DNA of 64,000 nucleotides from Candidatus Tritonobacter lacicola (GTDB lineage Bacteria > Auribacterota > Tritonobacteria > Tritonobacterales > Tritonobacteraceae), in contig JAVCDC010000080.1 in the NCBI GenBank assembly GCA_030765135.1, positions 33,336 to 97,335 on the forward strand, written 5' to 3'. Shown here piece after piece: positions 37,105 to 54,137 of this stretch (its first letter is position 1; each line of letters starts with the position of its first letter). The notes beneath the pieces were generated by a model. The model had not been told where the DNA came from and did no database searches. It was given only the letters and a program-made list of their open reading frames with translations. The position numbers and the translations under genes are program-made.

Positions 37105-37158
37105 GGCATGGCCGATTATAGCAGTCAGGTTCGTGCCTGTAAATGAAGGGGGCATTGG

Positions 37159-37250
37159 GATTGAAGATTGAAGATTGACGATTGAAGATTGAAGATTGAA
37201 AAATGGGGATTGAAGAATGGGGATTGAAGATTGAAGATTGAAGATTGACG
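37159..37250. repeat. GATTGAA heptamer tandem array
   Basis: About eleven GATTGAA units with GATTGACG and AATGGG interruptions between divergent ppx and tatA. A simple array with no inverse arm. Confidence 0.9.
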
Positions 37251-37305
37251 AAATGGGTTTGCTAATACCGGCATCCTGTGGTAGATATGTATAAAGGAGG
37301 GGCGT

Positions 37306-40432: not shown

Positions 40433-40522
40433 CTTTTAGAATCGCTTCCCCAATAAGCACGATGGGAAGCAGCAATAAATATACCTGAAAGTTCATTTAT
40501 TTCTGCACATTTGTCCCGGAAT

Positions 40523-41566
40523 ATGAGAGTAACAGTTCTCTACAGGGATCTTTCGCTCGATATCCCGAAATTACCCGCCACGGAGGAAAAGCCGGTCGCT
40601 CACGCATCCCCTCCCGTAGTAGACTCCAGGCAGGACACGAGCCACTGCGACTCCGTCATTGAGGTGCTGGGAAGGCTGGGCCACGACGCGTTCAAGGTCA
40701 ACGCGACAATTGACTGGCTCAAGGGCCTTCATCAGGGGCAGTACGAGCTGGTGTTCAATCTCTGCGACGACGGTTTCAGGTGCCGGTCGGAGCTCGAGCC
40801 CCACGTCTCGGCAGTCATGGACGTGTTCGACATACCGTATACCGGCGCCGGTTATCTTTCCCTGGGTATGTGCCTCGACAAGCATCTCACCAAGAAGCTT
40901 ATGGAGGCGCACGGAATCAGGACTCCGAAGTATCAGCTCTTCGAAAGGGTGGATGAGAAGCTCAAGAAGAGTTTGTCCTTTCCGTTGATAGTGAAGCCCT
41001 GCCGTGAGGACGCCAGCATAGGTATCGAGAGGGACTCCGTTGTTTATGATGAAGCCGCCCTGAGGAAGAAGATCGGTGCGGTGATAGGGAAACTCAAGCA
41101 GCCGGCGCTCGTAGAGGAGTACATCGATGGCAGGGAGATCAATGTCGGTATAATCGGGGACGGAGAGAAGGTCGTTCTTCCGCTCTCAGAGATCATTTTC
41201 GACGGCCTCCCGGAACACCTCGACAGGATCTGCTGCTACGAGGCGAAGTGGATCGAGGAGAGCGTCGAGTTCAGAAAGACGCCGCCGAAATGTCCCGCCG
41301 TTGTTGATAATAAGTTGCGAAACAAGCTCGTGAAAATCGCCCTGAGGGCCTATGGGATAATGCGGTGCAGGGACTACGGAAGGATCGATTTCAGGATCGA
41401 CGGAGAGGGGGTTCCCTATATCCTGGAGGTGAACCCGAACCCCGACATATCGGAGGACGCCGGCCTAGCCAACATGGCCCGCGCCGCGGGAATGTCCTAC
41501 GCGGACCTGATAGGCTATATTGTCAACAGCGCGTGCGACCGGCACGGGATGTATCCTGGTATGTAA
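40523..41566 (+). CDS. ATP-grasp ligase related to D-alanine-D-alanine ligase
   Basis: 347 residues from ATG 40523 (track TTG 40511). The ATP-grasp core: FPLIVKPCREDASIGIERDSVV near residue 155, VEEYIDGREINVGIIGD near 195, and DYGRIDFRIDGEGVPYILEVNPNPDIS near 290 with the metal-binding EVNPNP. The D-Ala-D-Ala ligase fold is clear but the dipeptide-binding residues are not conserved enough to call Ddl. It probably ligates an amino acid or peptide. It precedes PP-loop and GNAT genes, interrupted by a four-helix-bundle element. Confidence 0.8.
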   Translation: MRVTVLYRDLSLDIPKLPATEEKPVAHASPPVVDSRQDTSHCDSVIEVLGRLGHDAFKVNATIDWLKGLHQGQYELVFNLCDDGFRCRSELEPHVSAVMDVFDIPYTGAGYLSLGMCLDKHLTKKLMEAHGIRTPKYQLFERVDEKLKKSLSFPLIVKPCREDASIGIERDSVVYDEAALRKKIGAVIGKLKQPALVEEYIDGREINVGIIGDGEKVVLPLSEIIFDGLPEHLDRICCYEAKWIEESVEFRKTPPKCPAVVDNKLRNKLVKIALRAYGIMRCRDYGRIDFRIDGEGVPYILEVNPNPDISEDAGLANMARAAGMSYADLIGYIVNSACDRHGMYPGM

Positions 41567-41610
41567 TAAATTTGATAGGACATATGCTGCGGTTACTGCA
41601 GCATCTTTTT

Positions 41611-42142
41611 CAGAAATCGGTTGTTGGAAAACGGAAAACTGTAGGGAAAACAGAAAAGTGGAACAAAAAGAAGACAAGAAAAAGACCATAAAGAGTTTTC
41701 AGGATCTACATGTTTATCAGAATCTTTACCGGGCGATGATACTGGTTTTAACCAAGATTATTCCTAAGCTGCCGAAAGAGGAGAAATACGATCTGAAGGA
41801 CCAGATGAGAAGAGCTTGTAAAGCTGCTCCTGCTTTAGTTGCGGAAGGCTTTGCGAAAAGATATCAGAAGAAGAACTGGCAGAAATACCTCGATGACACC
41901 AGGGGTGAGTGCAATGAGATGATACATCATTTATCGGTTTGTATAGATGTGTACGCTGATCACGTGAACGCTGCTTTATGTAAAGATGCCGTTGATTTAT
42001 ACGATATTTCCTGCGCTCAATTATACAATCTGAAAAAGGTTTGGCGAGATTTCCACAAGGATGACTGACATAAATTTACCTCTTTCCGATTTCTGTTTTC
42101 CCTACAGTTTTCGGTTTTCCATTAACCGTTTTCCGATTTCAG
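41611..42142. mobile_element. Fold-back element carrying a four-helix-bundle gene
   Basis: The 5' arm CAGAAATCGGTTGTTGGAAAACGGAAAACTGTAGGGAAAACAGAAA (41611-41656) and the 3' arm TTTCTGTTTTCCCTACAGTTTTCGG...ACCGTTTTCCGATTTCAG (42090-42142) are inverted, with a perfect 23-bp core GAAAACTGTAGGGAAAACAGAAA (41634-41656/42090-42112) and matching outer GAAATCGG ends. One gene is enclosed. The architecture recalls 23S rRNA intervening sequences, which also encode four-helix-bundle proteins between complementary ends, but this copy is intergenic. Confidence 0.75.
41658..42068 (+). CDS. Four-helix-bundle protein (23S rRNA IVS-protein family)
   Basis: 136 residues from GTG 41658. IKSFQDLHVYQNLYRAMILVLTKII at the N-terminus, LPKEEKYDLKDQMRRACKAAPALVAEGFAKR and NWQKYLDDTRGECNEMIHHL are the hallmarks of the TIGR02436/PF05635 four-helix-bundle family. 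The biochemical role is unknown; relatives sit in 23S rRNA intervening sequences, and Avd accessory proteins of diversity-generating retroelements share the fold. The start codon lies immediately inside the 5' inverted arm, so expression depends on the element. The track start at 41520 reads back into the ATP-grasp gene. Confidence 0.88.
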   Translation: MEQKEDKKKTIKSFQDLHVYQNLYRAMILVLTKIIPKLPKEEKYDLKDQMRRACKAAPALVAEGFAKRYQKKNWQKYLDDTRGECNEMIHHLSVCIDVYADHVNAALCKDAVDLYDISCAQLYNLKKVWRDFHKDD

Positions 42143-42207: not shown

Positions 42208-43557
42208 ATGGAAATATCATATCATCTTCTCAAGCGTGGCCTGAGCATCACCGTCGATGGTGTTTCCGTCTCCATCACCTACCCCCAGGGAGTTTTCGAG
42301 AAACTCACCCTCCCCCAGAAAAAGCTCGTCTGCGCCAACCTCGTTTACGCCAAGACCATTCCACTGCGCCTTATAAAAAATAACAGGGTCATGAAGTACC
42401 GGACCCCGGTTCCCGTTCTCAAGCCCTTCTTCGACAGTGCCTTGATAGGGGACATCGCGCGTGTCAACGACCAGTCCGACTACATGACGAACGAGACCCT
42501 ATTTCAGCGGTTTCTAGACACGGCGGTTCTTTTCCTCAGCAACGACTTCGAGGCGCCCGGGGACTTCTCGTGCGATGGGAACAGAGCTCTCCTGACGATG
42601 TCTTTCGGAAAGGACAGCCTCCTCAGTTACTGCCTGGCGAGGGAGATGGGTATCCCGTACAGGCTCGTCTTCATACGAGATATCCACGGTGACGATGAGA
42701 TGGACATGAAGCTCCGTATCGCGAAGCGGTTCATGAAAGAGCAGGGAGAGGAGATGATAGAGGTCATCGACAGGAGCGACGAGCTCTACAACGACGAGCG
42801 GATAAACGTCGCGACGCTCGAGATATGCCAGTCCAACGCCATGAACTCGTTTCTCCTGGGCCTCGTTCCCGTGGCGCACCATTGCAGCGCCCGCTACATT
42901 GCCCTGGGCAACGAGAAGAACCTGGACTACCCGTTCATGGATGATGAGGGCTACACCTGTTATTATTCATACGAGCAGACGGAGGAGTGGACGCTCCAGC
43001 AGGACGTCTTCATGAGGCTGCTTACCGGGGGCAAGCTCGGTGTCATAAGTCTTGTCAAACCCCTTCCCAGCATTGCCGAGATAAAGGTCCTGTATGGCCG
43101 CTACCCCGATATTGCAAGGTACCAGATGTCCTGCACCCTCGACGACGCGGCGGACGGGAAGAAGAACCACTGGTGCGAGAACTGCCCGACCTGCACGGAG
43201 ACGTATCTCTACCTGAAAGCGTTCGGCCTCGACCCCGGGAAGTTCGGTCTGAAAAAGGACCTCCTGGCGAAGAAGTTCGAGAGTTGCTTCCCCCTCTTCG
43301 ACGGGGAGGACATAACCGCCTACGAGAAGTCGCGGAACGTGCGGGACGAGAACCTCCTTGCCTTCTACCTCGCCTATAAAAGGGGCGTCGAGGGTTACTG
43401 CATGGACATCTTCAAGAGGCGGTACCTGAAGGAGGCAAGAAGGAGGGAGAAGAGGCTCCGAAAGCTTTTCCTGGCCCCTCATGAGACGCCCCTCGTCCCG
43501 CCCGAATACCGGAAGGCCCTTTACGCCATCTTCAGGGAGGAGTTGAACTCGATATGA
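42208..43557 (+). CDS. PP-loop ATPase superfamily protein of unknown function
   Basis: 449 residues. LLTMSFGKDSLLSYCLAREMGI near residue 135 is an adenylation PP-loop (SxGKDS). The N-terminal 120 residues are unassigned. HWCENCPTCTETYLYLKAFGL near 325 has a CxxCxxC likely to bind metal or sulfur, as in some tRNA thiolases and QueC-like enzymes; overall similarity to those is weak. The stop overlaps the GNAT start by four bases (ATGA), so the two are coupled. With the ATP-grasp gene it may form a small-molecule or peptide-modifying set. Confidence 0.65.
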   Translation: MEISYHLLKRGLSITVDGVSVSITYPQGVFEKLTLPQKKLVCANLVYAKTIPLRLIKNNRVMKYRTPVPVLKPFFDSALIGDIARVNDQSDYMTNETLFQRFLDTAVLFLSNDFEAPGDFSCDGNRALLTMSFGKDSLLSYCLAREMGIPYRLVFIRDIHGDDEMDMKLRIAKRFMKEQGEEMIEVIDRSDELYNDERINVATLEICQSNAMNSFLLGLVPVAHHCSARYIALGNEKNLDYPFMDDEGYTCYYSYEQTEEWTLQQDVFMRLLTGGKLGVISLVKPLPSIAEIKVLYGRYPDIARYQMSCTLDDAADGKKNHWCENCPTCTETYLYLKAFGLDPGKFGLKKDLLAKKFESCFPLFDGEDITAYEKSRNVRDENLLAFYLAYKRGVEGYCMDIFKRRYLKEARRREKRLRKLFLAPHETPLVPPEYRKALYAIFREELNSI

Positions 43558-44024
43558 TCAGGAAATTGATAAAGGACGACATAGTCCCGATCAGGGATTT
43601 TTTAGAAGCGACGCGCATGTTCAAGGAAGAGGAGCTTGACGTCGCCGTCGAGATGATGGAAGAGTGCGCCGGGGATGCCGAACAGGAGGATTACATCTCG
43701 TACGTCAGCGTGGCAGGTGAGCGAGTAGTCGGCTGGATCTGTTTCGGGAAGACCGACTTCTGCGAGGGCGTCTACGACATGTACTGGATATGCGTGGACG
43801 GCGAGTTCCAGGGCGAGGGCGTGGGGAAGAGGCTGATCCTCTTTATGGAAAAGTATTTGAAGGAGAGGGATGACCTGCGCATGATGGTCGCAGAGACCTC
43901 GTCGCAGGAGAAGTACCGCCCGACGTGCAGGTTCTACGAAAAGTGCGGCTTCTCCATCGAGGCCGCCCTCCGCGATTTCTACTCCCCCGGCGACGACAAG
44001 CTGATTTACGTCAAAAGGTATTAA
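43554..44024 (+). CDS. GNAT family N-acetyltransferase
   Basis: 156 residues. The acetyl-CoA-binding motif VDGEFQGEGVGKRLILFMEKYL near residue 85 is clear, followed by the RFYEKCGFSIEAALRDFY motif B region. The FKEEELDVAVEMMEE N-terminal segment recalls GNATs that neighbour ATP-grasp ligases in other genomes (recollection, not searched). The substrate amine is unknown. Confidence 0.85.
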   Translation: MIRKLIKDDIVPIRDFLEATRMFKEEELDVAVEMMEECAGDAEQEDYISYVSVAGERVVGWICFGKTDFCEGVYDMYWICVDGEFQGEGVGKRLILFMEKYLKERDDLRMMVAETSSQEKYRPTCRFYEKCGFSIEAALRDFYSPGDDKLIYVKRY

Positions 44025-53747: not shown

Positions 53748-53864
53748 AAAGTCAGCCCGTCATAGTATAACGCGGTCAAGGCGGTGTAAATGCTAAAAGA
53801 TATCGTCGGCGAGGGAGAAACAAGCAGTATCCGACCAGTATATTACTGAAAAGAACGTTAAAAA

Positions 53865-53905
53865 ATGTGTAACGTGTAACGTGTAACGTGAAACGTGGAA
53901 CGGAA
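53865..53905. repeat. GTAACGT word array in the 53748-54137 gap
   Basis: TGTGTAACGTGTAACGTGTAACGTGAAACGTGGAACGG, about five words. The rest of this gap holds TTCCCTGATATTCCCCGATATTCCC words and a GCAGGCTCCC/GCCTGCGG fold; no gene is seen. Confidence 0.75.
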
Positions 53906-54137
53906 AAAAGATACAAGATGAAAAAACAGATGCGGGATGCAAGAAAGAACGTGAAATGTGTAACGAAAGGAAAGAATGAAGCAAAGGATGTTCAGTTCTT
54001 TTCCCTGATATTCCCCGATATTCCCTGTTTCTCTGTCTTCCGTTACCTCGGCATCGGGCCGCTGGAAGATGCATTCGGCTGTACGCAGGCTCCCTTCGGT
54101 AAGCTCAGGGTCTTCGAAAAGCCTGCGGCTACCAGGC

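Follow-up and report, generated by a model that had tools for sequence, protein, structure and literature searches.

A four-helix-bundle gene between inverted heptad arms in Candidatus Tritonobacter lacicola: a probable mobile cassette of the rRNA intervening-sequence type

Background

The closest described systems are the intervening sequences (IVSs) of 23S rRNA. In Coxiella, the 23S IVS is bounded by inverted ends and contains a sense S23p ORF, with tandem GACAGAT heptamers just before the start codon. It is removed by RNase III, and strains vary in heptamer number (PMC4990558). Where rRNA IVSs and their S23p gene come from, and what they are for, has for decades been described as unclear (PMC4990558). 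Seven-nucleotide words are also found in intergenic gaps of cyanobacteria, as the STRR / TAACTGA heptamer repeats, which were reported as gene-less direct repeats (PMC4679880). A large CRISPR survey lists the 23S rRNA IVP among its domains (PMC10910872). In the searchable literature, a heptameric repeat, 23S rRNA and an IVS came together only in Coxiella (PMC4990558). We found no report linking STRR / TAACTGA heptamers to S23p and, subscription papers and preprints aside, none of a general association between heptad arms and S23p.

The element described here occupies positions 41611-42142 of a 64,000-nt stretch of Candidatus Tritonobacter lacicola, contig JAVCDC010000080.1 (the whole stretch is referred to as the window). 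With the 23S rRNA IVSs of Coxiella and Leptospira it shares the protein family, complementary ends, a sense ORF (judged here from gene orientation), a size of ~430-520 bp and tandem heptamers ahead of the start codon (PMC4990558). An earlier note on this DNA had recognised the plan of an rRNA IVS, and the match extends to the heptamers. Unlike 23S IVSs, the cassettes lie between protein genes, are many per genome and carry words private to each copy. Since the cassettes have all the testable anatomy of the IVS but lie outside rRNA, we classify them as a free-living IVS variant and not as 23S IVSs; they look like the free-living form of the rRNA intervening sequences. The feature is probably a small mobile cassette of IVS type that lives between protein genes and whose arms would be recognised by symmetry, not by sequence.

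The window element

The element is bounded by an inverted repeat (41610-41656 and 42090-42136) of 47 nt, 89% complementary, with a spacing of 433 nt and a perfect 23-nt core (41634-41656 and 42090-42112). This agrees with the perfect 23-bp repeat and the pairing of about 45 bases claimed earlier. The left arm (41614-41656, forward strand) consists of AAATCGG followed by GGAAAAC words at 41626, 41633 and 41645, with a period of 7 (p=0.03). The right arm (42090-42136, forward strand), located by inverted-repeat comparison, pairs with it, and together they form the outermost helix of the predicted RNA fold of the region (z=-4.68 against shuffles). The enclosed forward-strand gene (41658-42068, 136 aa) ends in TGA. 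It starts with GTG two bases from the inner end of the left arm, as had been noted. The 6 nt TTTCAG at 41608-41613 are repeated identically at 42137-42142. These are candidate left and right target-site duplications only, since our survey (below) shows no general excess of such repeats.

The three neighbours named in the earlier note are present. An ATP-grasp gene (D-Ala-D-Ala-ligase-like, 40511-41566, forward strand) lies upstream, a gene for a PP-loop / MurL-like protein (42208-43557, forward strand) downstream, and a GNAT gene (43554-44024) beyond the latter. The PP-loop gene had no match among 59 relatives, so the window element has no empty allele among them. No rRNA was found within the 64-kb window. 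Two gene-less heptad arrays lie on its forward strand: a direct GATTGAA array of 99 nt between genes (37155-37253), with no inverted partner, and an AACGTGT array (53861-53907), whose word is common to a coding element (L005).

The protein scored 57.6 bits with PF05635 (cutoff 33.8) and 50.1 bits with TIGR02436 (cutoff 24), which bears out its assignment to the 23S rRNA IVS-protein family. Its score with NF033474, the accessory variability determinant (Avd) of diversity-generating retroelements (DGRs), was 20.5 (cutoff 80). The AlphaFold model has four helices (pLDDT 95.6), and its best matches among solved structures were the S23p-family entries 2GSC and 2RLD, followed by Avd chains of DGR complexes. 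The cassettes are thus like DGR Avd in their common fold and distant profile match, and unlike DGRs in having neither a reverse transcriptase nor a repeat pair. Their only coding content is the four-helix protein. Within-genome PF05635 copies gave dN/dS values of 0.06-0.17, by which measure the protein is under purifying selection and therefore matters. To our knowledge it has no known catalytic activity, and no catalytic residue or recombinase was identified.

Copies in the genome

The genome (3.2 Mb, 94% complete) contained 15 PF05635 matches, 12 of them above the cutoff. Inverted flanks at the other four-helix copies had been set beforehand as a test of the idea, and all 12 above-cutoff genes had inverted flanking arms that scored above shuffled flanks. 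The flank scores of the three sub-cutoff matches did not stand out from shuffled flanks, and GNAT control genes had flank scores of 9-12. The arms consist of arrays of a ~7-nt word private to the copy; the words include ATGAGTT, CAAGATA, ATTAGCG, AACGTGA, GGAAAAC and CGAGGGG. The genomic background was measured on 417 kb, in which the heptad-structured inverted pairs 200-900 nt apart all belonged to PF05635 elements. The arms of the window element are thus not a chance occurrence.

Common words were found in related copies at different sites 4.5 kb apart (L006 and L008), and identical words in a set of three copies at different sites within one genome (L074, L076 and L078). Such comparisons show cassettes that have been copied to new places.

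Breadth across Bacteria and Archaea

Two samples were surveyed. In the first, relatives from the same phylum and a few outsiders provided 76 testable PF05635 copies, and the arm threshold was the 99th percentile of mispaired flanks (about 1% of which reach it in this set). Arms above threshold were found in 57 of the 76, with a unit of 7 or 14 nt in 45, 8 nt in nine and 10 nt in one. A scan of the GTDB collection provided 80 named PF05635 loci, assessed with the same score cutoff, which 1.5% of mispaired flanks reached. Fifty-three of these were armed, 42 of them with a period of 7 or 14. Armed loci occurred in Planctomycetota, Omnitrophota, Bacteroidota, Pseudomonadota, Desulfobacterota, Chloroflexota, Cyanobacteria, candidate-phyla bacteria, Kiritimatiellota, Bacillota and Methanophagales archaea, among others. 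No rRNA was detected at the 40 cassette loci scanned with Rfam.

Arms were not detected in roughly a quarter to a third of PF05635 copies, which we count against the cassette reading. Protein subfamily was considered as an explanation of the arms and rejected, since armed copies are dispersed through the tree and cluster little. Element arms in Nostoc consist of TAGGGAG words and may be compared with the cyanobacterial STRR / TAACTGA repeats, which are likewise 7-nt words in intergenic gaps (PMC4679880).

Filled and empty sites

The earlier note had proposed comparing insertion and empty alleles. Such pairs were found, not for the window site but for other cassettes of this genome and on cyanobacterial plasmids. 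The rnfA-rnfB gap holds a cassette in this genome and measures ~8-25 bp in four relatives (G013, G003, G011 and G018); in a fifth (G001) it contains a gene-less heptad array. The mnhC-mnhD gap, also filled here, is only a few to ~15 bp long in G003 and G006. When filled, these gaps are ~450 bp in this genome.

Seven plasmid sites (A-G) had filled and empty alleles. The empty form of site A, AAAAAGTAATTAACAAAT, was found in Tolypothrix PCC 7601 and Nostoc linckia. The filled form, AAAAA-GTAAT-cassette-GTAAT-TAACAAAT, was found in Trichormus variabilis ATCC 29413 and Scytonema, with flanks 97.7% identical between filled and empty and a 5-bp duplication, GTAAT. At site F, in Nostoc ATCC 53789, the cassette is bracketed by duplicated TTCTA. 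Of two Picosynechococcus strains, PCC 7003 has site D (cmr2 / cmr3) filled and PCC 7002 has it empty. A third close filled/empty pair, site H, showed no clean duplication, with 16 nt differing at the junction, and direct repeats at arm ends were not in excess in a survey of 116 elements with ends placed by alignment. Given the survey and site H, the 5-bp target duplication finds support in two cases only, those of the best-resolved relatives. Cassettes are seen to insert between genes, in sense for the most part, and compared with its empty counterpart a filled site has gained the gene along with both arms.

Several of these sites also carried reduced forms. Site A has a same-word fold-back without the gene in Brasilonema and a truncated copy in Nostoc C052, and site E has a gene-less GGGAACA fold-back in Nostoc ATCC 53789 and a full cassette in two other Nostoc. 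Gene-less fold-backs occur on cyanobacterial plasmids at sites where coding copies are found (L220 and L229). Another in this genome (L189) has an AACGTGT word in common with cassette L005. The suggestion that the window element is the coding member of a fold-back class fits, since these gene-less fold-backs (L189, L220 and L229) exist.

Inverted ends, gene-less derivatives and the 5-bp duplication in two relatives are traits that the cassettes share with MITEs and insertion sequences. They could accordingly be non-autonomous elements moved by a resident DNA transposase, with the four-helix gene as cargo. The ends nevertheless differ between copies, words being common to close copies only, and such copy-private words leave no shared transposase site. 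The cassettes contain no known transposase, and one constant gene, under purifying selection, recurs with the same anatomy in many phyla. We regard this explanation as unlikely, though it fares best among the alternatives.

Change in the arms

Arm sequences were common to close copies only. One arm differed by one heptad between L224 and L230, and L209 and L214 differed by two heptads. Comparison of copies shows that arms travel with the gene, that they gain or lose whole words as their length changes, and that unrelated copies have different arms. In the two genera that share one orthologous site (L030 and L050), 29 of 32 left-arm bases were identical while 79% of synonymous sites differed, so arms in place are held constant.

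The earlier expectation of RNA-level selection on arm pairing was not upheld. Arm mismatches had no G.U bias (136 wobble-type and 149 non-wobble transitions, p=0.48), so selection for RNA pairing of the arms is not apparent, which we also count against the cassette reading. With no sign of selection on a sense-RNA helix, the mismatch pattern points to symmetry kept in the DNA itself, where it could serve in recognition or come from copying between arms, for instance.

The same result bears on an RNA-level retroelement, in which a spliced-out hairpin RNA would be copied to DNA by a reverse transcriptase acting in trans, with the four-helix protein as an Avd-like partner. The Avd-like fold, the sense orientation in transcripts and the stable predicted RNA fold are in keeping with it. 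Against it, the arms lack G.U bias, the 12 armed copies reside in a genome (3.2 Mb, 94% complete) without a PF00078 reverse transcriptase match, several copy-rich relatives are also without one, and the copy that adjoins a reverse transcriptase (L064) has no arms. We therefore consider such a mechanism improbable.

Position in operons

Genes neighbouring a cassette were on its strand in 174 cases and on the opposite strand in 40 (p=4e-21), and both neighbours were co-directional with it at 74 of 103 sites. Neighbours were called by an ORF rule, and single cases may be wrong. The outer arm ends lay a median of 6 nt past the upstream stop and 1 nt ahead of the next start. The left arm was purine-biased, with G exceeding C in 94 of 112 and the reverse in 14. 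Neighbours varied at nearly every site and included rnf, mnh, tRNA, cas, conjugation and nrd genes. Two cassettes lie inside CRISPR operons of cyanobacterial plasmids, between cas6 and cas4 (L225) and between cmr2 and cmr3 (L221).

This variety of neighbours, together with the empty alleles, makes it very unlikely that the genes are plain operon members that serve the host, with arms that are local regulatory or decaying repeats, even though the gene is under purifying selection, armless copies exist, and one site is kept in two genera with near-constant arms and saturated synonymous sites. Chance landing of the gene between two common heptad arrays deserves almost no credence: solo arrays do occur, as the main tandem class of this genome, but an inverted partner was found at only 1 of the 8 as against 12 of 12 genes, and the filled/empty comparisons, in which gene and both arms come together, refute it.

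Proposed mechanism and implications

In the IVS-type cassette that we favour, outer inverted arms of a ~7-nt word enclose one four-helix-bundle gene (S23p/IVP/Avd fold) of ~110-140 aa. The cassette would lack its own promoter and depend on transcription of the host operon, in which the purine-rich left arm would act as a leader. By analogy with the 23S IVS, the arms may anneal and RNase III may cut the insert out of the transcript. Probably pentameric, as is 2GSC, the protein would recognise the symmetric arm structure by shape and not by sequence, which would allow each copy to keep a private word. Strand transfer could be an unrecognised activity of the four-helix protein or the work of a host enzyme.

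A broader claim is more tentative. The cassettes may represent a very widespread class of transposable elements that insert in operon gaps and whose sole protein, a four-helix bundle of ~120 aa, acts on the symmetry and not the sequence of the heptad arms. From this class the rRNA IVSs would descend, along with many fold-backs and heptad repeats of intergenic DNA. The rRNA IVS would then belong to a larger group of cassettes in operon gaps, whose movement the filled and empty alleles of cultured cyanobacteria make directly testable, and many heptanucleotide repeats may be explained by it. This placement also suggests why the S23p domain appears "linked" to CRISPR and other operons. Hitch-hiking cassettes would mislead guilt-by-association annotation, and those in CRISPR operons are a likely source of a false CRISPR association. 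The earlier note was largely right about the class and is partly supported overall.

Individual loci

Several loci had peculiarities of their own. One cassette (L003) has a word period of 10 rather than 7 and a Moco riboswitch downstream (1804-1926). A ~60-bp unit with ATTAGC words occurs about four times in the left flank of L009 (G000:C34), and the right arm of L012 (G000:C22) apparently supplies the N-terminus of the downstream gene (MPPDNQHSPPAPRPSPLDT...). In another phylum (G051), loci L087 and L088 contained 19 PF05635 matches, mostly head-to-head pairs of a ~100-aa version; the L088 pair forms a large palindrome that has a hairpin at its centre, and AACTGA-type heptads lie on one side. 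A long inverted repeat with ATTGGGGACACTCTT ends, at 15300-16116 of L191 and downstream of L013, is not heptad-like and looks like another repeat family. In L004 (G000:C42) the cassette lies between tRNA genes, with a degenerate copy of a tRNA 3' half between nested arms, and L046, in another genome (G002), adjoins a tRNA that matches this half-copy.
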